Made by a program: the position numbers and the translations under genes
Part shown: piece after piece, positions 43,987-56,100 of the stretch
How positions within the stretch are numbered: the first letter of the stretch is position 1
Layout of the letters: the number at the start of each line of letters is the position of its first letter
Assembly: GCA_024742735.1 (NCBI GenBank)
Contig: JANSXV010000002.1
Location: 513,909-577,908 of the forward strand
Source of the DNA: Alphaproteobacteria bacterium
GTDB lineage: Bacteria > Pseudomonadota > Alphaproteobacteria > Caulobacterales > Maricaulaceae
DNA: 64,000 nucleotides
Direction of reading: 5' to 3'
The notes under the pieces: generated by a model
Database searches by the model: none
What the model was told of the DNA's origin: nothing
What the model saw: the letters and a program-made list of their open reading frames with translations, nothing else

Positions 43987-44053
43987 CAAACGGCCGCGAA
44001 CGCAAGCCGAGGCTACAGGTATTTGCTCCGCTCAGCGAGCAGGGGAGACCAGG

Positions 44054-45508
44054 ATGAGGATCAAGGCATTCACACGGCGCGGCGCGCTGGGGCTTCTGGG
44101 CGGAGCGTCCAGTGCGGCGCTGATCGGGTGCGGACCGCGCGGCGACCGGGGTGCACGGGACGCCGAGGTCATCGTGATCGGCGCAGGGCTGTCCGGGCTC
44201 AACGCGGCGATGATCCTGGCCGATCAGGGCATGGACGTGCTGGTGCTGGAGGCCTCGTCCCGCATCGGCGGGCGCATGAAGACGCTGGACGCCCTGCCGG
44301 GCCGGCCGGAAGCGGGCGGTCAGCAGGTGGGCGCGGGCTATGGCCGGGTGAGGGGGCGCGCGGCGGATGCGGGCCTGACCTTCGAGGACTTTCCGCCCAA
44401 TCGGTTCGGCGAAGTTCTGGCGATCGGCGATACGCTGATCCCCGCTGCGGAGTGGGCGAGCCATCCGCTCAACGCGCTGCCTGAGCCCCTGAAGCCCATT
44501 CCGCCGGGCCGGCTCTTCTTCTCCCTGGCCGCGCGCGCCAATCCGTTTCAGGACGTCTACGCCTGGATGGACGAGGCGGCGGGGGTCCATGATGTGCCGG
44601 CGCACAGCTGGATGGCCGGGCGCGGGGCCAACGAAGAAGCGCTGCGGCTGATGAATGTCTCGCTGAACGGGCGGGACCTGGCGTCCTACTCCATGATCAA
44701 CGTGTTCCGCTCCCTGGCGCTGTACACGCTGGAGCGGTCCATGGGGCCGTCCCAGGCCATCACCGGCGGGTCCCAGCGCCTGCCTGAGGCCATGGCGGAG
44801 AGCCTGGCGCGTCCGGTGCGTACCGGCGCGAACGTGGCCGCCATCGAAGCCGACGGGGCGGGCGCGCAGGTGCGGCTGGCGGGCGGGGAGACGCTGCGGG
44901 CCGACTTCGTGATCTCCACCCTGCCCTTCCCGGTCATGCGCCAGATCGGCGTGGAGGCGCCGCTGTCGGCTCTCCAGCGCGAGGCGGTCGAGGCCATGGC
45001 CTACACCCCCATCGTCCAGCTGCATCTGGAGGCGGAGACGCCGTTCTGGGAGGCCGACGGCCTGGCCCCGGAGATGTGGACGGACTCTCCCCTGGAGCGC
45101 GTCTTCGCGGGCCGCGCGGCGGACGGGACGCCCACGGGCATGCTCACCTGCTGGCTCGACGGGATGGGCGGGCTGTCGGCCTCCACGATGAGCGATGGGG
45201 AGCTCGAAGCGCTGGCGCAAGCCGAACTCGCCCGCCTGCGCCCGGCGAGCGGGGGCCGCGTGCGTCTGGCCCATGCCCAGCGCTGGACGCCCTATAACGC
45301 GCTCGCCGGCGGCGCCTACATGCACTACCAGCCCGGACAGGCGCCCGCCTGGGGCGGACAGCTGGCGACTCCGGCGGGCCGGTTGCATCTGGCCGGGGAG
45401 CATCTGGGCGTGCTTCATACCGGCATGGAGGCGGCCATGGAGTCCGGCGAGAACGCCGCCCTGGCGGTCCTCGACGCCGCCGCGCCCTATCCCGGCCGAG
45501 CGCAGTGA
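44054..45508 (+). CDS. FAD-dependent amine oxidase family protein, Tat-exported
   Basis: A 484-residue flavoprotein. The N-terminus has a twin-arginine motif (TRRGALGLLGG) followed by a lipobox-like SAALIGC. The Rossmann motif VIVIGAGLSGLNAA (near 38-51) with LVLEASSRIGGRM (FAD ribose glutamate and arginine region) follows. The C-terminal amine-oxidase segment GRLHLAGEHLGVLHTGMEAAMESGENAA closes the FAD site. Substrates of such enzymes are amines or amino acids. Divergence from a TRAP importer suggests that the transporter brings in the substrate or removes the product; that link is inference. Confidence 0.85.
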   Translation: MRIKAFTRRGALGLLGGASSAALIGCGPRGDRGARDAEVIVIGAGLSGLNAAMILADQGMDVLVLEASSRIGGRMKTLDALPGRPEAGGQQVGAGYGRVRGRAADAGLTFEDFPPNRFGEVLAIGDTLIPAAEWASHPLNALPEPLKPIPPGRLFFSLAARANPFQDVYAWMDEAAGVHDVPAHSWMAGRGANEEALRLMNVSLNGRDLASYSMINVFRSLALYTLERSMGPSQAITGGSQRLPEAMAESLARPVRTGANVAAIEADGAGAQVRLAGGETLRADFVISTLPFPVMRQIGVEAPLSALQREAVEAMAYTPIVQLHLEAETPFWEADGLAPEMWTDSPLERVFAGRAADGTPTGMLTCWLDGMGGLSASTMSDGELEALAQAELARLRPASGGRVRLAHAQRWTPYNALAGGAYMHYQPGQAPAWGGQLATPAGRLHLAGEHLGVLHTGMEAAMESGENAALAVLDAAAPYPGRAQ

Positions 45509-45581
45509 GCGCCGGGACCTCCCGGCGATGGGTCTTCAACAGGTCCCGGATCGCCTCCGGCGTCCGGGATAGGGGAGAGTG

Positions 45582-46328
45582 ATGATGATCAGTGTGAAGT
45601 CCGGCCTGTTGAGCGGGCTGGCCGCCCTCAGCCTCACCGCCTGCGCCAGCGCTCAGAGCGAGCCCGCCCCCGCCTTCGAGCCGGGCCGCGCCCCGGCCAT
45701 GGAGCGGCAGCTGGACTGGCTCACCGGCGCCTGGTCCAACGCGGCGCAGTACGCCGCCGCGCCCGACGCCCTCAAGCGCGAGCCGGCGGCGGGGCATCCC
45801 TACGACTGGCTGGACCTTCAATACGCCGAGTTCACCCGTATCGATGCGCCTCAGGTCGGCGATTACGTCGTGTATCTGGAGTGGCGCGCGGGCGGTCCGG
45901 ACGGGCCGGTCAGCCGCCAGCGCATCTGGTCCTTCCTGGCCGACGCGCAAGGCCGGCCGGCGGGCATGGACTTCTACACCCTGAACACTCCCGACCTCTA
46001 CGCCGGGCGCGCGCAACAGCCCTGGGTGTTCGCGGACCTGAGCCCTGAGGATCTCACCGGCTATCCGGACGGCTGCACGCTCTCGCACGCCTACCCGGCC
46101 TCGGTGGGGAGTTTCTACCGGCTGAACCCGGCGACCTGCACCATCACCGCGCGGTCCGGGCGCACCATGGCCCTGCGCGCCGACATCCAGCTCCACCCCG
46201 GACGCCTGACCTATTCCGAGGCCGGCGTGCTGGAGAGCGGCGACTACGCCTTCCTCGTGCCGGGCGGTGAGAGCTTCGGGTATGAGTTCCGGCCGGTGCA
46301 GGCGGGCGAGCCGGGCGCGACCCGCTAG
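45582..46328 (+). CDS. CpcT/CpeT-family lipoprotein
   Basis: A protein of about 248 residues with a lipoprotein signal (GLAALSLTAC). A domain follows with LDWLTGAWSNAAQYAA, VYLEWRAGGPDGPVSRQRIWSF and YPDGCTL, the pattern of the CpcT/CpeT chromophore lyase family. In cyanobacteria the family attaches bilins to phycobiliproteins; bacterial relatives without phycobilisomes have unknown function and may bind another hydrophobic ligand. The start is one of consecutive ATGs (45582, 45585) after AGGGGAGAG. The 3' end overlaps the convergent HTH gene by four bases. Confidence 0.75.
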   Translation: MMISVKSGLLSGLAALSLTACASAQSEPAPAFEPGRAPAMERQLDWLTGAWSNAAQYAAAPDALKREPAAGHPYDWLDLQYAEFTRIDAPQVGDYVVYLEWRAGGPDGPVSRQRIWSFLADAQGRPAGMDFYTLNTPDLYAGRAQQPWVFADLSPEDLTGYPDGCTLSHAYPASVGSFYRLNPATCTITARSGRTMALRADIQLHPGRLTYSEAGVLESGDYAFLVPGGESFGYEFRPVQAGEPGATR

Positions 46329-47305
46329 GACGCGGCCTCCGTCTTTTCCTCGGCCTCCGCCTCCGTCCAGCCCTTCACAGCGGCCATGCACGCCTCGAAC
46401 TTCTCCAGGTCGATGGGCTTGTGCACGCCGGTGAACCAGTCGGGGACGTCGCCGCGCTTGCCGCCCCATCGCTCGGGGTGGATGTAGCGCATCACGAGGT
46501 ATTGCACCGCCGAGATCCCCGGCGCCCAGTCGCCGGCGGCGATCCGCGCCTTCTCCGCGTCCGTCGCCTTGCGCCAGCCCCCGCCGGACAGGGCGAAGGG
46601 CGTCAGGTCCAGCCCGCGCACATCCTCCAGCCCGGTTTCAGCCTCGGCGCGCTCGTCCTGATCAAAGGCGTGGTAGACGAGCCCGCGAATGCGCCGCTCC
46701 AGCTCCGCGCGCGGATCATCGTCGGGGGCCGGCGCCACCTCCTCCGCCGCCGCCTTCGCTCCGGTCCCCGCCCCCGCCAGAACCTCCGCAGCCCGCACGA
46801 AGCGCTGGCCCAGCAGCAAGGCCTCCCGCGCCGCCCGCGCCCGGCCTTCAGCGGCCAGCGTCAACGCCCGCGCCATGAAGGCTTGTCCGGCGGAGCGCAG
46901 GGCGTCCGGGGTGAGTTGTTCCTGTCCTCCCTCGCGTCCGCTCGGTCGGTCCTCGCTTACGCGCTCGCAAGCTCGCGCTTCGCTGCGGGCGGGCGGTCGC
47001 CCTTGCGGACCCTGCGGGTCCGGAAATCCTGAATCCCCGGCCAAGCCCGGATGGGCGCAGAGCCGGGGCCTCCCTGCGAGCTCGCAACCACGTCCCGGGT
47101 CTTCGCCCGGGAATTCAGGAGCATTATCCCGCTCCTCCATATCCCCCAGCCGCCACCCGCCGCGCGCCGCCCATTGATAGAGGGTGGAGGCCGGAACCCC
47201 GGTCGCCCGCTCGATCCCGGCCATGGTGAAGCCTCGCGCGCGCATCTCCCGCGCTTGGCGCTCCAGAGCGGCGCGCTGCGCCTGTGATCGAGGTCGTCCC
47301 GGCAT
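46325..47305 (-). CDS. HTH protein with palindromic repeats in its reading frame
   Basis: A 326-residue protein. Residues 1-55 form a helix-turn-helix resembling phage terminase small subunit or transposase N-termini (ARGFTMAGIERATGVPASTLYQWAARGGW). Residues about 62-130 are encoded by dispersed palindromic repeat DNA (46930-47122) and read as G/P/R-rich low complexity. From about 131 on there are helical segments, then a conserved-looking C-terminal half with SAVQYLVMRYIHPERWG. The repeat insertion keeps the frame. Function unknown; a DNA-binding role is inferred from the HTH. It converges on the CpcT/CpeT gene. Confidence 0.55.
   Translation of the reverse strand: MPGRPRSQAQRAALERQAREMRARGFTMAGIERATGVPASTLYQWAARGGWRLGDMEERDNAPEFPGEDPGRGCELAGRPRLCAHPGLAGDSGFPDPQGPQGRPPARSEARACERVSEDRPSGREGGQEQLTPDALRSAGQAFMARALTLAAEGRARAAREALLLGQRFVRAAEVLAGAGTGAKAAAEEVAPAPDDDPRAELERRIRGLVYHAFDQDERAEAETGLEDVRGLDLTPFALSGGGWRKATDAEKARIAAGDWAPGISAVQYLVMRYIHPERWGGKRGDVPDWFTGVHKPIDLEKFEACMAAVKGWTEAEAEEKTEAAS
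46930..47122. repeat. Composite palindromic repeat inserted within the HTH gene
   Basis: The stretch contains three elements: a GCGCTCGCAAGCTCGCGC-type palindrome (about 46960-46978), a hairpin CGGACCC/GGGTCCG (47006-47022), and a larger inverted repeat whose ends are TCCTGAAT (47027-47034) and ATTCAGGA (47113-47120), with CCCGG-rich inner arms. It resembles the intergenic CCTGAATC repeats at 47574-48377 in design. It lies in frame inside the HTH gene, like Rickettsia palindromic elements in proteins. Confidence 0.65.
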
Positions 47306-47351
47306 GGGGGGAGTCTAAGGGCGGAAAGGGGGGCGGGGGATAAGGCGCTCC

Positions 47352-47552
47352 CCCTCTCCCCTCCTTGAGGAGGGGAGAGGGATGGGGTGAGGGGGTGAGC
47401 GCTGGTCGGCGTCAGCCGATCAATCGCCCCGGTGGGGCGATTGAAAGCCGCGAACGGGCCGGCAGGCCCCAAAAGACGGCGCCGCCTGCGTGACGCCTCA
47501 AAGCCTGGCGCCGACCCCCTCACCCCGACCCTCTCCCCCTATGAGGGGGAGA
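47352..47552. repeat. MITE-like element with inverted C/G-rich hairpins
   Basis: The left end is a perfect 13-bp stem CCCTCTCCCCTCC/GGAGGGGAGAGGG (47352-47381, TTGA loop). The right end is TCTCCCCCT/AGGGGGAGA (47532-47552). Sequences inside each end (47375-47395 and 47515-47538) are inverted copies of each other, GGGTGAGGGGG against CCCCCTCACCCC. A central perfect hairpin, CAATCGCCCC/GGGGCGATTG, lies at 47421-47443. No open frame with coding character. The design fits a non-autonomous mobile or REP-type element. Confidence 0.6.
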
Positions 47553-47573
47553 AGGGGAAGGCCTCCCCCCTTT

Positions 47574-48377
47574 GTCATCCCGGACGGTCGAAGGCCGATC
47601 CGGGACCCATGGCGCCGCCGTTCAAACTGGGTCCTGAATCAAGTTCAGGATGACGAAAGCGGGTGAGGGAGCGCGCAGCGCCAAGCCGCCTCCGCCCATC
47701 GCACAATCACCCCTGCACCTCCACCCCTCGTCATCCCGGACCCCGATCCGGGACCCACGGCGCCGCCGCTCAAACTGGGTCCTGAATTAAATTCAGGATG
47801 ACGAAAGCGGGTGAGAGAGCGCGCAGCGCCAAACCGCCACCGCCTCACCGCCCGTCTTCACCTCCACCCTTCGTCATCCCGGACTTGATCCGGGACCCAC
47901 AGCGCCGCCGCTCAATCTGGGTCCTGAATCAAGTTCAGGATGACGAAAGCGGGTGAGGGCGCGCGCAGCGCCAAACTGTCGCTGACCTAGCACGACACCT
48001 GCACCCCATCTCGCGTCATCCTGAACTCGATTCAGGACCCACAGCGCCGCCATCGAACCTGGGTCCTGAATCAAGTTCAGGATGACGAAAGCGGGTGAGG
48101 GAGCGCGCAGCGCCAAACCGCCTCCGCCCATCGCATAATCACCCCTGCACCCCACCCTTCGTCATCCCGGACCCCGATCCGGGACCCACAGCGCCACCGG
48201 TCAAACTGGGTCCTGAATCAAGTTCAGGATGACGAAAGCGGATGAGGGAGGGCGCAGCGCCAAGCCGCCTCCGCCAATCGCACCCCTTCTCCACCTCCAC
48301 CCTTCGTCATCCCGGACTTGATCCGGGACCCACGGCGCCGCCGTGGAAACTGGGTCCTGAACCAAGTTCAGGATGAC
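47574..48377. repeat. Six tandem cruciform-capable repeat units
   Basis: Units start GTCATCC at 47574, 47730, 47873, 48015, 48161 and 48306 (spacing 156, 143, 142, 146, 145). Each has a left arm with CGGACTTGATCCGGGACCC (itself a CCCGGA/TCCGGG palindrome), about 18 bases of CAGCGCCGCC-type loop, and a right arm with TGGGTCCTGAATCAAGTTCA ending GGATGAC. The two arms are also inverted copies of each other. Between units a conserved spacer of about 70 bp (GAAAGCGGGTGAGGGAGCGC and GCGCAGCGCC) repeats. Unit 4 has a CCTGAACTCGATTCAGG left arm. No gene is seen in 47306-48516. Confidence 0.9.
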
Positions 48378-48516
48378 GAACGCGGGTGAGGGAGAGCGGG
48401 GCGCCACACAGCCCGGTCACCGCTCCGCAGCGGGCCGAAGGCCAGCCTTGACGCGTCCGGCTTAAGCTGCGGGAGACTTGGCGTGGGGGTAGGGGTGTCA
48501 GTGAAAGCTGCGCCCG

Positions 48517-48735
48517 CTACAGATCGCCCCGCGCTGTCGCTTCGATTTCCTCGCCGTCACCATCGAGCGTGACCACGCGCCGATCATCGAACTCGCTGAC
48601 GCCTTGCGTTTTCCAAACGACGCCTTCGCCGCCATCGAACGCGATCTGGGCGGCTTCATCGGCGTTATCGGCTTCGACTTCCGCGATGTAGTCCACAAAG
48701 GCGTCGACGCGGGAGAGGACACGAAACTTGGCCAT
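48517..48735 (-). CDS. Small acidic protein of unknown function, 72 aa
   Basis: A 72-residue acidic protein starting MAKFRVLSRVDAFVDYIAEVEADNADEAAQIAFDG. The beta-strand then A/E-rich helix pattern resembles short accessory proteins that bear a YxxxVEAxxxxEA motif (DpnD/PcfM-like), but the match is too weak to name. It lies 61 bp downstream of the DpnI-like gene on the same strand and could be co-transcribed. ATG 48735 lies near GGAGCACG. Confidence 0.55.
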   Translation of the reverse strand: MAKFRVLSRVDAFVDYIAEVEADNADEAAQIAFDGGEGVVWKTQGVSEFDDRRVVTLDGDGEEIEATARGDL

Positions 48736-48796
48736 GGACGTGCTCCTTGATGATATGCTTGGAGCTTATCGCGCTCAGCATATGTTCGCCAGATGT

Positions 48797-49582
48797 TCAT
48801 GGCGTGAGCCGGTACCGCCCGCGCCCGACAAATTCCAGCCAGCCGCGATCGCGCAGCACCTGAAGCTGCTGGCGGATTTTTTCGCGAACGTGGCGGTTCT
48901 CGGGATAAAGCTCGCCGAGCGCCGGGGCGAAGCCGTATGCATCGTCGATGGTGAAATCAGCCCGGCCAAGCGCTTCGATCTGCGCCATGATCTCCACCAG
49001 CCAGCCGCGCGCGCCTGAACTTGTGTCTCGTAAGAAGGCGGTCTTACTCCACTTTTCGATCACGTCGCGCCGGTCCGCCGGAATGCTGTCACGCACGATC
49101 TGGATGCGCCCTGAAGGCGGCACCTTCTCAAGCAGTATATTGCATCCGACCCAGCCGGCCCGCCGGGCCGTTGGGGCGAGCGGCTTGCGCTTTTCGATCA
49201 GGTCGGCGGTGAAAAAGTGCTTGGGAACGACGATCAGATCGCTGACCGCCTGGCGGTCCCGATCATACCGCAATACGAAGAGGCTTGGGTTCGACGCCGA
49301 CGCCAAACGCTCGAGCATCGTCGCCCAGGCGCCGTCGAGCACCTTCCGCCCGATCTTCGTCTTCTGGGATTTCAGCTCGTAATCCTCACGGCACGACCCG
49401 CATAAGAGGTCGGCGACGGGGGCGTTGTTTGGATGGGCCTGCAGCCGATCCGCGCCGCACGCGGGACAGTAAAGCTCACGCTCCGCCCAGCCCTCGGTCC
49501 AGACGCGCGCCGACTGAGACGGGCTGTCAAACGGCGCCTGCGTCTCTTCGAAGCCGAGATTGAGATGCGATTTTTCCGACAT
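48797..49582 (-). CDS. DpnI-like methyl-directed restriction endonuclease
   Basis: A 261-residue protein that aligns along its whole length with Streptococcus DpnI (about 254 residues). An N-terminal catalytic domain has a zinc site C39-C42 and C61-C64 (CPACG ... CGSC) and the PD-(D/E)xK residues D58, E69 and K71 (PVAD ... ELK), with the spacing of DpnI D53, E64 and K66. KPLAPTARRAGWVGCNI is near-identical to DpnI. The C-terminal winged helix (VREKIRQQLQVLRDRGWLEFVGRGRYRL) reads methyladenine in DpnI. It should cut Gm6ATC and so attack Dam-methylated incoming DNA. No partner methylase is seen or needed. Divergent from the toxin-antitoxin-chaperone operon. Confidence 0.9.
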   Translation of the reverse strand: MSEKSHLNLGFEETQAPFDSPSQSARVWTEGWAERELYCPACGADRLQAHPNNAPVADLLCGSCREDYELKSQKTKIGRKVLDGAWATMLERLASASNPSLFVLRYDRDRQAVSDLIVVPKHFFTADLIEKRKPLAPTARRAGWVGCNILLEKVPPSGRIQIVRDSIPADRRDVIEKWSKTAFLRDTSSGARGWLVEIMAQIEALGRADFTIDDAYGFAPALGELYPENRHVREKIRQQLQVLRDRGWLEFVGRGRYRLTP

Positions 49583-49887
49583 GGCCTATCAGCGTGGGTA
49601 CGAAATCCTACGGAGATCATCGCCAGAAAGTGTTCGCATCGAGTGTCCAGCTGCATCCAGACACGCCCACTCAAACTCCGGACCTCTTGGCCATCGCTAA
49701 ACGCTTATAGTATTTTGGGGATTCAAAAGGGATTTACCGGCGCGTATGCTACCTTGTGCGGCCGGGCATCGGCTTATTGCTTGCCGATTAGCTTGAATGA
49801 TTGACAATTTACGCAACGCAAAGTTCGATTAATCTCAATCGCATGCGCGATTCGAGTGGGCATCCCAATGACAAACCTCTTGTCAAG

Positions 49888-49902
49888 GGTTAAGCTCTAA
49901 CC
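49888..49902. promoter_or_regulatory. Palindromic operator candidate of the toxin-antitoxin-chaperone operon
   Basis: GGTTA-AGCTC-TAACC is a perfect inverted repeat 17 bases before the toxin ATG, where HigA-type antitoxins usually bind. The gap 49583-49919 contains no other gene. A TTGACA -35 hexamer lies at 49801-49806, with GATTAAT as a possible -10 at 49827-49833. Confidence 0.5.
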
Positions 49903-49919
49903 TAACTGTGGCTGCTTAC

Positions 49920-50354
49920 ATGGCGAAGGCAATCAACCGAGATGTGAGCAAGCCGTGGTGCGTCGGGGCGACCTGCGACGTCTACTGGAATGAAAGCTAT
50001 GAGAATGAGTTCCGTTCTCGAAGGGTCGAACCGAAGAGCGCAGCAAAGCTCCAAGCGGTACTGACGCGCATGTACTGCGAGCATGGACCTGAAAACATAC
50101 CTGGTGGGTCAGAGCGATTGAACAGGAATGAAGGACGATATTTGGTTGGTGGAAAACGGCTTTTGGTCTGGGCGTTCAAAGATTTCCAACTCCGGGTCTA
50201 CGGAGTTGAAGGAAGCGTTCATGGAAAAAGGGCCTTCTTTGCCTCTGAGGTTGAGCCTCGAAAGAAAAAAGACGGGGCTGATCAAGCCCAACTAAAGCGC
50301 GCTGCTGAGCGTGCCGTAGAGTTGGCAGGGTCAGTTAAGGGGGGAAGCTTATGA
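49920..50354 (+). CDS. HigB-like (RelE/ParE superfamily) toxin of a TAC system
   Basis: About 144 residues from ATG 49920 (a GTG at 49908 in frame is possible). The second half carries KRLLVWAFKDFQLRVYGVEG, then GKRAFFASEVEPRKKKDGADQAQLKRAAERAVEL, which matches HigB/Gp49-like ribosome-dependent mRNA interferase toxins. The N-terminal 60 residues are less recognisable. The toxin comes first and overlaps the antitoxin by four bases, the HigBA order. Composition is clearly lower in GC than the chromosome, in keeping with horizontal transfer. Confidence 0.7.
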   Translation: MAKAINRDVSKPWCVGATCDVYWNESYENEFRSRRVEPKSAAKLQAVLTRMYCEHGPENIPGGSERLNRNEGRYLVGGKRLLVWAFKDFQLRVYGVEGSVHGKRAFFASEVEPRKKKDGADQAQLKRAAERAVELAGSVKGGSL

Positions 50355-50815
50355 TGGAGAATAAAATGGATGAGTTCGAACTGCTCGTTGCCGAGGAGGA
50401 GCTGATTGCGGACTGCCAGATGTACATTTACCTTCTGATGAAGGAGAAGAGAGTCAGTAAAGCCGATCTTGCTCGCCTCCTCGGTGTTTCGAAAGCTTCT
50501 GTCTCTCAGATGCTTTCCGCTGATTCGAATCTTACCCTGCGGAGTATCGCTCGCATCGCGGCGCTGCTCGGCGAGAAGGCCACTATCTGCGAACGGAAGT
50601 CCCGAGTTCATGTTGAGGACACGATCGGAGCGCCCGAGCAGCGAGGAGATCGAGGAAAGCGTTGGTTCGCTAAGGAAGCCGCTGAATTTGCGGAGCTTTC
50701 TCTTCTTAGTAGCAATCTCGCCAACGCGAATGACAATTATGGGACGGTTTGGGGCTTCGATGAACTCGACATCGCGCCTTCGCCTCGATCCAAGCCTAGG
50801 CTGACGGCCGCTTAA
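50351..50815 (+). CDS. HigA-like XRE antitoxin with C-terminal extension
   Basis: A 154-residue protein. A helix-turn-helix of XRE type spans about 32-75 (VSKADLARLLGVSKASVSQML, NLTLRSIARIAALLG). After it comes an unusually long tail (about 85-154) with aromatic/hydrophobic stretches (NYGTVWGFDELDI). In toxin-antitoxin-chaperone systems the antitoxin tail is a chaperone-addiction (ChAD) segment bound by SecB; this tail is the candidate. The ATG overlaps the toxin stop (ATGA) after GGGGGGAAGC, and the SecB-like gene follows after 3 bp. Confidence 0.75.
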   Translation: MMENKMDEFELLVAEEELIADCQMYIYLLMKEKRVSKADLARLLGVSKASVSQMLSADSNLTLRSIARIAALLGEKATICERKSRVHVEDTIGAPEQRGDRGKRWFAKEAAEFAELSLLSSNLANANDNYGTVWGFDELDIAPSPRSKPRLTAA

Positions 50816-50818
50816 AGA

Positions 50819-51277
50819 ATGACTGATCAAAAAGACAGCGCAGAGTTTGACCGTGACGAGTACAACCGCGCAGTTAAGGCTGCGCGGTTGCTTGACGTTG
50901 CACTCACAGCATCAGAATTTTCCGTTAAAGGTGAATATTTTTCCCCTAGTGAAACGCCTAGGCGGTTGTCGTCAGATTATACGCTTGTCGACTGCTCGTT
51001 TGATGGAAGTCACCTTATTTTGTTGGTCCGATTTGCCATTGAGGCAAAGGAGTCGAATAAAAAGCTTCTAAAATGCAAGTGTGATTATAATGTCATCTAC
51101 GCGTTCAACGAAGATGACATATCAGAACCAGCCGCTAAATCTTTTGGCAATCATATTGCTCAGTTCACCGCATACCCATACTTTCGGCAGCATGTTTCTC
51201 AGCTAAGTTGGGAATCGGGAGCTGATCTACCGATCCTACCCGTTTTGAAGCGCATGCCGATGAAAAAGAACGAGTGA
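50819..51277 (+). CDS. SecB-like chaperone of the toxin-antitoxin system
   Basis: A 152-residue protein. The SecB fold pattern is visible: a first strand region (LTASEFSVKGEYF), central strands (LVDCSFDGSHLILLVRFAIEAK, LLKCKCDYNVIYAFN) and the diagnostic late motif FTAYPYFRQHVSQLSWESGA with LPILPVL. This aligns with FALYPYIREYVYDLT and LPPLTL of M. tuberculosis Rv1957 and with LFPYAREC of SecB. It should bind the antitoxin tail and permit its folding, linking toxin control to protein-export stress. GC content is low compared with flanks. A second, housekeeping SecB would be expected elsewhere. Confidence 0.75.
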   Translation: MTDQKDSAEFDRDEYNRAVKAARLLDVALTASEFSVKGEYFSPSETPRRLSSDYTLVDCSFDGSHLILLVRFAIEAKESNKKLLKCKCDYNVIYAFNEDDISEPAAKSFGNHIAQFTAYPYFRQHVSQLSWESGADLPILPVLKRMPMKKNE

Positions 51278-51306
51278 GCCTGCATTGTCAGCTTCATGCT
51301 GGCTTC

Positions 51307-53535
<2,229 letters not shown>

Positions 53536-53659
53536 GGGGTCCCATATGGGCTGCGGACGACGGCGCGAACAGGGGCGATGTCTAAGGCTTGGTTAACGCT
53601 TGCCGGGCAGGATCGCAAAGCAAGCAGACGCGCTCACACCGCTGGATCCCGGGCCGCCC

Positions 53660-54184
53660 ATGTCCCAAGGCAGTTTCGAACGGATACGCGTCCTCATTCT
53701 GGAGGACAACGCGCACATGTCCACGATCCTGCGCACGATCCTTCAGGGGTTCGGCGTGCGCACCGTCGTGGAGGTCCGCGACGCCGCCGACGCCTTCGAG
53801 ATGATGCGCAGCGCCAACCCGGACCTCGCACTGGTCGACTACATGCTGGGCGATGTGGACGGTCTGGAATTCACCCGTCTGATCCGCACCGCATCGGACA
53901 GCCCGAACAAGTATCTGCCCATCATCATGGTCTCCGGTCACACCGACCGGACCAAGATCATGGAGGCGATCAACGCCGGCGTGAACGAGTATCTGGCCAA
54001 GCCGGTCCGTCCGGTGGACCTGTATAACCGCCTGGTGTCCCTGATCGAAAAGCCTCGCCGCTTCGTGAAGGCGCCGGCCTATTTCGGCCCGGACCGGCGC
54101 CGGCGCCAGGACCCGCGCTATAATGGCCCCTGGCGGCGCGCCAGCGACAATCAGGAGGGCGCGGAGGACGATCCGTTCGAATAG
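53660..54184 (+). CDS. Orphan single-domain response regulator
   Basis: A 174-residue protein: receiver domain (about 8-130) with acidic pair E15/D16, phospho-acceptor D60 in LALVDYML, switch S92 and K114 in LAKPVRP. The tail (about 133-174) contains FGPDRRRRQDPRYNGPWRR, a basic segment seen in alphaproteobacterial CheY-like orphans, then an acidic end. No output domain and no kinase gene nearby. The ATG at 53660 (MSQGSFERIRVL) is preferred over the in-frame 53600 start. Confidence 0.85.
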   Translation: MSQGSFERIRVLILEDNAHMSTILRTILQGFGVRTVVEVRDAADAFEMMRSANPDLALVDYMLGDVDGLEFTRLIRTASDSPNKYLPIIMVSGHTDRTKIMEAINAGVNEYLAKPVRPVDLYNRLVSLIEKPRRFVKAPAYFGPDRRRRQDPRYNGPWRRASDNQEGAEDDPFE

Positions 54185-54250
54185 TCTCCGCCTCAATTTC
54201 GCCCACGGCCGTGGTCCCGATGGCTGGATGACGTCAAACAGGATGGCTGC

Positions 54251-55408
54251 GTGAGCGTGCTTCGCCCCGTCTACATCACCGGAACCGGAGCGGTCCTGCC
54301 TGGAGATCCCGTCGGCGTCGACGCCATGGAGGACTATCTTGGCCGGGTCGGCGGCAGGGCTTCCGCGCTGGGCCGCCGCGCGCTGCGCTGGAACGGGATC
54401 GAGACGCGCCATTATGCGCTGACGCCGGACGGGACGCCGACCCACACCAATGCGGGGATGTGCGCGGATGCCGTTCGTGGTGCGGCCGAGGCGGCTGGCG
54501 AGCCCTTGTCCAGGCTGAACCATCTCGCCGCCGCGACCACGCAAGGCGATCTGCTCGTCCCCGGCCATGCCGCCCAGGTTCATGCCGCGCTGGCTTGCGG
54601 ACCGCTTGAGATCGCCAGCTTCCAGTCGGTCTGCGGGTCTGCCCTCATGGCGGCGAAGTCGGCCTGGCAGGCTGTGCGCACCGGCGAAGCCGGGACAGCG
54701 GCCGCATGCGCCGGGGAGCATGCGTCGCGTTGGTTCCGGCCCCACTTCTTTGAAGGGACGGCGCTGATCGACGCCAAGGGGCGCCTGGCGATGGAAGCGG
54801 AGTATCTGCGGTGGACGCTGTCTGATGGCGCCGGCGCGATCTGGCTGAGTCCCAAACCGGCGCAGGGCGCTGTGTCGCTCCGCGTCGACTGGATCGACAT
54901 CGTCTCGCTCGCGGACCGCTTCGATCCGTGCATGTGGGCGGGGGCGACAGAAGCCGACCGCCATGACCTGACGCAGGCCTGGCCGTTTCTGGGTCCTCAG
55001 GCGGCGTTCAGCGCCGGCGCCGTCGCCCTGCAGCAGGATTTCACGCTGCTCAAGACGATCATCCGCGCCTGGATCGGGGTGTATCTGGAGAAGGTCGACG
55101 CCGGGCGCATCGACCCCGCTGCGATTGATCACCTGCTGCTGCACTATTCAGCCAGGTCCCTGCGTGAGGAAATCGTGCGCCTGCTCACCGACACCGGCGC
55201 CATGATCGACGAGGCGCGCTGGTTCAATCCGCTGGCGCGCACCGGCAATATCGGTTCAGCTTCGATCTGGGTGATGCTCGACGCTCTGCTACGCGAACGC
55301 CCGCCGGAGCCGGGGCAGACGGTTCTCGCGGTCGTGCCGGAGAGCGGGCGCGGACTTGTGGGCTTTATGCACATGACCGCCGTCGATCAGAATGGAGAGA
55401 CATCATGA
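54251..55408 (+). CDS. KASIII (FabH-like) beta-ketoacyl synthase
   Basis: A 385-residue thiolase-fold protein with the KASIII triad C128 (SFQSVCGSA), H298 (LLLHYSAR) and N333 (RTGNIGSAS), so it should be an active condensing enzyme. It is longer than housekeeping FabH (about 320 residues) and lacks its usual ACP-binding sequence, fitting a specialised synthase. GTG start at 54251. It overlaps the next gene by four bases, in a three-gene cassette with a heme-oxygenase-like oxidase and an unknown protein. A role in making an unusual lipid or aliphatic product is inferred. Confidence 0.8.
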   Translation: MSVLRPVYITGTGAVLPGDPVGVDAMEDYLGRVGGRASALGRRALRWNGIETRHYALTPDGTPTHTNAGMCADAVRGAAEAAGEPLSRLNHLAAATTQGDLLVPGHAAQVHAALACGPLEIASFQSVCGSALMAAKSAWQAVRTGEAGTAAACAGEHASRWFRPHFFEGTALIDAKGRLAMEAEYLRWTLSDGAGAIWLSPKPAQGAVSLRVDWIDIVSLADRFDPCMWAGATEADRHDLTQAWPFLGPQAAFSAGAVALQQDFTLLKTIIRAWIGVYLEKVDAGRIDPAAIDHLLLHYSARSLREEIVRLLTDTGAMIDEARWFNPLARTGNIGSASIWVMLDALLRERPPEPGQTVLAVVPESGRGLVGFMHMTAVDQNGETS

Positions 55409-56100
55409 GCGTGCATGTTCACACCGGGGCCGATCCCGCCCGGCTTCAGTCCACCCTGCGCAAGCTCGCCATCGCCTGGACTGGGTTTGAAGCCCGGCTG
55501 GAGACCGCCCCCTTGATCCGCAAGCTCAATCGTGGCCAGCTGACCTTAGCGGACTACCAAGCCTTCCTTATCAATCTGCGTCAGCAGGTGGTCGAGGGCG
55601 CCTGCTGGATCTCCCGGGCGGCGTCCAACATCAGCGAGGACTATTTCGAGCTTCGCTCCACCCTGATCGGTCACGCCGCCACCGAGCACCGCGATTATCA
55701 CCTGCTGGAGCAGGATTTCGTCGCGGCGGGCGGAGCGATCGAGGACATCCGCACGGCGCGCAAGAATGTCGGGTCAGAGGCCCTGTCGGCGTGGATGTAT
55801 CATCAGGCGGGCCGGCCCGATCCGTTTCACTTGCTTGGCGCCATGTGGATCATTGAAGGGCTGGGCGCCCAGAAGGCCAGCGATTGGGGCGGGTCAGTGC
55901 TGCGCCAGCTCGACCTGCCGCAGGAGGCTGCGCGCTTCCTGCTGTATCATGGCGAAAATGACGGCGATCACATGGAGGAATTTCAATCCATGCTCGCCAT
56001 GACCCCGCTGGATGAGGCGCTGGAGGCGCGCATCGTGCGCTGCGCGGAGGTGACCGGGCGGCTCTACGCGCTTCAGCTGGAGGAGATCGAGCTTGCCTGA
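55405..56100 (+). CDS. Heme-oxygenase-like diiron (HDO) enzyme
   Basis: A 231-residue all-helical protein of the TenA/heme-oxygenase-like fold. Likely metal ligands are E94/H95/H99 in HAATEHRDYH, E151 in IIEGLGA and H182, D186 and H189 in HGENDGDH. The H-x3-D-x2-H spacing matches CADD-type diiron oxidases. Known HDOs perform fatty-acid decarboxylation to alkenes (UndA), C-C cleavage and N-oxygenation. With a KASIII encoded just upstream (four-base overlap), an acyl or beta-keto substrate is a reasonable guess. Exact chemistry unknown. Confidence 0.75.
   Translation: MSVHVHTGADPARLQSTLRKLAIAWTGFEARLETAPLIRKLNRGQLTLADYQAFLINLRQQVVEGACWISRAASNISEDYFELRSTLIGHAATEHRDYHLLEQDFVAAGGAIEDIRTARKNVGSEALSAWMYHQAGRPDPFHLLGAMWIIEGLGAQKASDWGGSVLRQLDLPQEAARFLLYHGENDGDHMEEFQSMLAMTPLDEALEARIVRCAEVTGRLYALQLEEIELA

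Follow-up and report, generated by a model that had tools for sequence, protein, structure and literature searches.

A divergent operon, very probably of the toxin-antitoxin-chaperone kind, in a Maricaulaceae genome

Introduction

Toxin-antitoxin-chaperone (TAC) systems form an established class of switches for phage sensing and stress, of which few have been studied. The question raised here is whether three adjacent genes in a stretch of 64,000 nucleotides (the window, the terminal part of contig C19 in genome G000, GenBank JANSXV010000002.1) from a member of the Maricaulaceae form such a system, with a SecB-like chaperone acting on the antitoxin. Genes and proteins are named T (predicted toxin), A (XRE predicted antitoxin) and C (SecB-like chaperone). 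The operon is very probably a TAC of the higBAC kind, and it is a divergent branch of that known kind, barely recognised by protein-family libraries. The direct support comes from the presence of the three genes in a recurrent order, the link of C to the SecB family, the predicted folds, the conserved blocks and Ala-Ala end of the tail of A, and the presence of clpX in the genome.

Gene order and recurrence

The three frames are intact, lie on the forward strand (Table 1) and, as in the preliminary description, are tightly packed and low in GC, with 50.8% for 49908-51277 and 67.9% and 65.5% for the flanks before and after (1-kb bins of the window, leaving out those at 49-52 kb and the last, range from 62.7 to 73.0%). 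T and A are separated by +11 if A starts at the ATG at 50366 and overlap by 4 bases if it starts at 50351; the A-C gap is +3. The ATG start of T is also the start in several close relatives and in the database entry for this same protein (P0012). The adjacent, co-directional order of toxin, antitoxin and chaperone, previously recognised as that of TAC systems, was found in 10 further loci.

Relatives were found at 41-88% identity for T and 31-88% for C, the best being 88% (T), 82% (A) and 88% (C) identical, and the nearest named relatives of A and C belong to Oceanicaulis sp. MAG (order Maricaulales). Of 299 genomes of the order, each searched separately with T and C profiles, seven had C and six had T, all six within the seven and with T beside C; in the seventh (G181, locus L007), the T position is occupied by an open reading frame (ORF) that the T profile misses. 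Because T and C both have relatives and their separate profiles land side by side, the association of the genes is not due to chance. C was found in 3 of 60 genomes of one family (that of G023), all three of them found before; a class-level search of 385 genomes gave two further T-A-C loci, and one more is present in Phenylobacterium deserti. Among 72,556 plasmid records, C was found in three, all from Sphingobium, of which two were opened (Sphingobium sp. TKS, H2, was left out), one having T-A-C and the other a different pair before C. T had no match in plasmids and phages, and C had only partial weak matches in phages (five records, the strongest covering 49% of the query at E 2e-3); in viral_contigs, the T and C patterns matched 16 and 10 stretches, respectively, none of them confirmed. 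A weak tblastn match to C (E 2e-3) lies at gp44 of Gordonia phage Agueybana (L092:2513-2776), between the immunity repressor and the integrase; it may be due to chance, and the phage was not counted as a carrier because the match falls on a short hypothetical protein. The branch is rare and patchy where searched, as mobile toxin-antitoxin systems are.

Twelve loci of TAC type were opened, and C comes immediately after A in all of them, 11 with an XRE protein (the window, L002, L004, L006-L011, L019 and L020) and one (L001) with an unrelated winged-helix protein ending in DEDLAA; these loci are partly non-independent, L008-L010 being close. The other C-profile locus opened (L021, from a search with four matches) holds a solitary SecB.

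Table 1. Features of the operon and its upstream region (window positions)
Feature	Position	Strand	Evidence
T, predicted HigB/RelE-fold toxin	49908 (GTG) or 49920 (ATG, 144 aa)..50354	+	Predicted fold
T, most conserved stretch, K87 to K116 (144-aa numbering)	50178..50267	+	Basic K87, R92, K115, K116; RVYGVEG and FF strands
A, XRE (HTH_3/HTH_26) predicted antitoxin with C-terminal extension	50351 or 50366 (both ATG)..50815	+	HTH_3 3.2e-7, HTH_26 3.5e-7
A, tail block 1, GKRWFAKEAAEFAELSL, aromatic, basic at start, candidate chaperone-binding site	50654..50704	+	Identity 0.66 in five sequences; flanking linkers 0.45, 0.31
A, tail block 2, NDNYGTVWGFDELDIA, aromatic and acidic (net charge -4), previously described ChAD candidate	50729..50776	+	Identity 0.72; 8/16 columns invariant in five sequences
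A, C-terminal KPRLTAA, predicted ClpX-type C-degron	50792..50812	+	7/7 columns invariant (identity 1.00) in five sequences; most conserved segment of A
C, SecB-like chaperone, 152 aa	50819..51277	+	
C, YPYFR motif	51173..51187	+	PYFR in 19/19 rows; YPYFR in 15/19, remainder WPYFR
C, LPIL, aligned with LPPL of Rv1957	51227..51238	+	HMMER alignment
Inverted repeat AATCGC-4-GCGATT, candidate operator for A	49837-49852		Upstream of T
Inverted repeat TGACAA-5-TTGTCA, candidate operator for A	49869-49885		Upstream of T

The tail of the antitoxin

The assignment of A as an XRE protein with a long C-terminal tail agrees with the HTH_3 match and with the tail as read in the alignment. The best PADLOC model for A was PDC-M64B (1.4e-9), a component of a candidate defence system, whose match spans the helix-turn-helix (HTH) part. 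In the window sequence and four close relatives, with segment borders placed by eye, the mean pairwise identity was 0.80 in the HTH domain and 0.45, 0.31 and 0.44 in three linkers, which alternate with block 1 (GKRWFAKEAAEFAELSL), block 2 (NDNYGTVWGFDELDIA) and the C-terminal end. Such conserved islands within a drifting tail point to selected contacts. The tail peptide previously singled out (NYGTVWGFDELDI, at 50735-50773) had been said to differ from known tails and possibly to define a new type of chaperone addiction domain (ChAD). It is indeed unrelated in sequence to the tail of HigA1 of M. tuberculosis; as a sign of novelty, the difference was rejected, since the ChADs compared in PMC5105189 have no significant similarity to one another and mere difference in sequence is therefore expected. 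The equal 29-residue spacing of tryptophans in A (W105, W134) and HigA1 (W108, W137) is probably a coincidence; counted by eye, it is kept in four of the five close sequences and is 24 in P0032.

An Ala-Ala end is present on the protein encoded just before the SecB-like one at 12 of 12 TAC-type loci, and the background frequency is 15 of 327 ORFs (mechanical longest-ORF choice, at least 150 aa, from the window and from six genomes sampled as 20 stretches of 20 kb). Rows P0029-P0033 of the A alignment, which are database proteins with neighbours unseen, are not among these 12. The Ala-Ala end was rejected as a novelty because CmdA and other TAC antitoxins are already stated to end in LAA, a ClpXP signal (PMC11618068), and in HigA1 the SecB site and the ClpX degron are found together in one ChAD (PMC8165232). 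With clpX encoded in the genome, the tail blocks, the Ala-Ala end and this precedent suggest that A has the expected anatomy, one or two chaperone blocks and then a degron.

The SecB-like chaperone

C had been described as carrying a SecB motif and aligning to Rv1957 of M. tuberculosis, and both the YPYFR motif and a HMMER alignment to Rv1957 were recovered. In Rv1957, the LPPL residues (L154-L157) line a pocket for Tyr114 of the ChAD (PMC6377645). Membership of C in the SecB family is supported by profile and predicted fold: the model of the product of 50819-51277 is predicted to have the SecB fold, whose absence the preliminary description regarded as decisive. The profile comparison with SecB gave a divided answer, as the C profile reaches solitary SecB and Pfam SecB (PF02556) had no match to window C at E <= 1 or at 0.5. 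The best PADLOC model for C was CmdC. The genome also has its own solitary SecB, located elsewhere.

The predicted toxin

The HigB-like nature attributed to T is supported by the predicted fold and is not seen by sequence. No match to a HigB-type toxin was obtained in Pfam, NCBIfam, PADLOC or PDB-sequence, curated HigB/RelE models all miss T, which has 0 families in Pfam/NCBIfam, and the 23 aligned T members have no HigB/RelE model in Pfam. The fold search (VIA) on the predicted model lists HigB/RelE, with the M. tuberculosis TAC system as best match, and T is thus predicted to be a HigB/RelE-fold toxin. In the T alignment (24 rows), G95 and K116 are invariant and K87, R92, Y94 and K115 are conserved in at least 90%; the K87-K116 stretch may correspond to the RNase pocket, with residues equivalent to R68/R77/K95 of HigB1.

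Evidence against the assignment and alternative explanations

Several observations weigh against a TAC of the higBAC kind, and those on the toxin come first. T has no sequence link to HigB, so that its identity depends on one predicted model and VIA-align; Foldseek was weak (best E 0.021, none at E <= 0.001), HigB1 was not among the 50 matches listed, and the T candidates in L002, L007 and L020 are known mainly by position (18-22% identity). A TAC with a toxin of other chemistry than a HigB-type mRNA interferase, comparable to the ADP-ribosyltransferase CmdT of CmdTAC, would agree with the position of T outside the family libraries tried, with a weak Ntox15 match (0.005) in one of the 23 aligned members and with CmdC as best PADLOC model for C; given the fold predicted for T, this is considered unlikely.

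Other observations concern the chaperone and the tail. Taken alone, window C has no Pfam SecB match and a match to Rv1957 only at E 0.69; Pfam SecB is likewise missed by four rescanned relatives. The 12 loci were mostly found via C, so the adjacency of C is partly due to selection. Ordinary XRE proteins of relatives also end in Ala-Ala fairly often (7 of 29), and the Ala-Ala test is weaker for it; this control comprised 29 of 30 loci with the strongest HTH_3 matches (L067, with strand not given, was left out), several apparently mutual orthologues. One of four distant XRE matches left out of the A alignment (P0034-P0037, neighbours unseen, ending in AA, VA, VA and KP) likewise ends in Ala-Ala. 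Finally, published SecB-binding motifs combine aromatic with basic residues and strongly disfavour acidic ones, and the HigA1 ChAD resembles them (PMC5105189); block 1 starts in this manner, but block 2 is acidic. Either block 1 would be the main chaperone site or the A-C pair would use another chemistry. A doubtful form of the latter is that a SecB-like clade beyond the reach of Pfam reads an acidic-aromatic block, V-W-[GA]-F-[DE]-E-[LV]-D-I, instead of an aromatic-basic one, without cross-talk with the cellular SecB, and that the pair could be transferred to other proteins.

An alternative is an ordinary two-gene HigBA-like pair with a downstream SecB paralogue, of export type or general, that has no control over the antitoxin, as HigBA pairs function without a chaperone and overproduced TAC-linked SecB can replace export SecB (PMC5105189). 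This is improbable because C directly follows A in the TAC-type loci opened, a solitary SecB is already present in the genome, the long tail of A has an invariant end, and the Ala-Ala end is found in 0 of 6 relatives of the L001 module without a visible SecB-like neighbour (two of the six near-identical). A decayed or silent copy is highly improbable, since intact frames, close relatives of all three proteins and conserved blocks alternating with variable linkers, which point to selection, stand against its rarity in the genus (C matched in 0 of 9 other genomes) and the lack of a consensus promoter in the scan.

Proposed mechanism and significance

For a TAC of the higBAC kind, here it is proposed by analogy that C would bind an aromatic tail block of A, shield KPRLTAA at the C-terminus and maintain the fold of A, and that folded A would block T and likely repress the operon. 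Another client drawing C off would expose the Ala-Ala end, by which ClpXP would take A, and the freed T would likely cut mRNA on the ribosome, stopping growth or phage production. Binding of A by C, degradation of A, RNase activity of T and the trigger are all taken from characterised systems, in which the client is a phage capsid or tail protein, namely the lambda major tail protein for higBAC of E. coli (PMC11980606) and the T4 capsid protein for CmdTAC (PMC11618068). In the M. tuberculosis model, the clients are proteins that are exported or aggregated. The operon would probably act as a defence or stress switch.

Members of the branch were seen in the order to which the window host belongs, in Phenylobacterium and in plasmids of Sphingobium; because the branch is nearly invisible to family libraries, annotation misses it. 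It was not named among the papers listed on SecB-like chaperones with alphaproteobacterial toxin-antitoxin systems, on chaperone addiction or (5 of 98) on Oceanicaulis toxin-antitoxin systems or SecB; the Sala 2013 and Mets 2024 surveys, the likeliest to include it, lie outside this scope, and prior mention there is possible. With two tryptophan blocks of different charge and a fixed Ala-Ala end in one tail, the way in which a SecB-like chaperone selects its antitoxin can be tested cleanly here. If the dependence on the chaperone is true, chaperone and tail would together make a new stability switch, whose trigger, phage or secretion stress, could then be tested.

Genomic setting

On the left, the operon directly adjoins a DpnI-type restriction gene (48797-49582, reverse strand), encoding an intact methyl-directed enzyme (PF06044 6.1e-67, DpnI_C 1.1e-25, PADLOC mREase_II 9.2e-90), and on the right uvrB (51307-53535, reverse strand), so that two likely defence genes stand beside uvrB. 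A defence role for the operon, given this neighbour, is plausible. The C profile had no match in the 9 other genomes of the genus examined, and T, A and C were absent within 1.5 kb at 11 other uvrB loci of the genus. In four genomes of the genus, compared over about 18 kb past the end of uvrB, DNA similarity to the window stops in the last 25-50 bases of uvrB (51331-51355), and to the left of this point no DNA matching the window was found in them; the operon therefore lies where synteny breaks, as expected of acquired DNA. No consensus sigma-70 promoter was found in 49583-51340, where the promoter and terminator scan was no better than shuffles, and Rfam (47000-54000) and tRNA (44000-56000) scans gave nothing. 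At 47645-48407, reverse-strand frames repeat peptides such as FVILNLIQDP and RHPELDSGPRLSGGAVGPGS, apparently as repeated DNA.

A related module on a Sphingobium plasmid

Locus L001 (2911-5447, Sphingobium baderi plasmid NZ_CP128178.1) encodes a 417-aa protein, a 245-aa winged-helix protein and a SecB-like protein, possibly a new kind of TAC. The first has no Pfam match and by eye resembles the carbon-nitrogen hydrolase (nitrilase) fold; the second matches MarR at 9.6e-5, below the Pfam cut-off. The first gene occurs in 15 plasmid records, of which six were opened besides that of L001; in these relatives (Bradyrhizobium, Methylobacterium and Rhizorhabdus plasmids), the winged-helix gene comes next and the SecB-like gene was judged absent by eye (no PYFR-type motif). 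From these sequences, it is as if SecB and degron came together in modules of the L001 type. In a Bradyrhizobium guangxiense plasmid (L095:5566-6173), an annotated HigB-family toxin and XRE regulator come right after a trio of nitrilase-like, winged-helix and unknown proteins.

Comparison with known systems

The M. tuberculosis TAC (HigB1-HigA1-SecBTA, Rv1955-Rv1957) shares the T-A-C order and is the best VIA match of both T and C. Its antitoxin has two tryptophan stretches in the C-terminal tail and a Val-Ala ClpX end (PMC5105189, PMC8165232). However, structural-alignment identity is only 10% for T and 16% for C, and the window tail is unrelated in sequence, with an acidic block 2. The window host also has a solitary SecB, whereas most hosts of toxin-antitoxin-linked SecB outside the alpha-, beta- and gamma-proteobacteria are described as lacking one (PMC4257090). 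The solitary export SecB (PF02556) resembles C in fold and distant profile kinship and differs in that its Pfam model misses window C. The third gene of Caulobacter higBA is stated not to resemble the chaperones (PMC13384398). In CmdTAC (PD-T4-9, E. coli ECOR22), whose CmdC model matches window C, the antitoxin also has a ClpXP end of the Ala-Ala type (PMC11618068). Its toxin is an mRNA ADP-ribosyltransferase and CmdA, as described, has two helices and a long unstructured part, whereas T has a predicted HigB fold and A an XRE domain and tail; PADLOC had no match for T or its 23 aligned relatives, and the fold search of T lists HigB/RelE. By description, the anti-phage higBAC of E. coli C496 is similar in having a HigB-type toxin, a HigA-type antitoxin and a SecB-like third gene, and in that system a phage protein releases A from C (PMC11980606).
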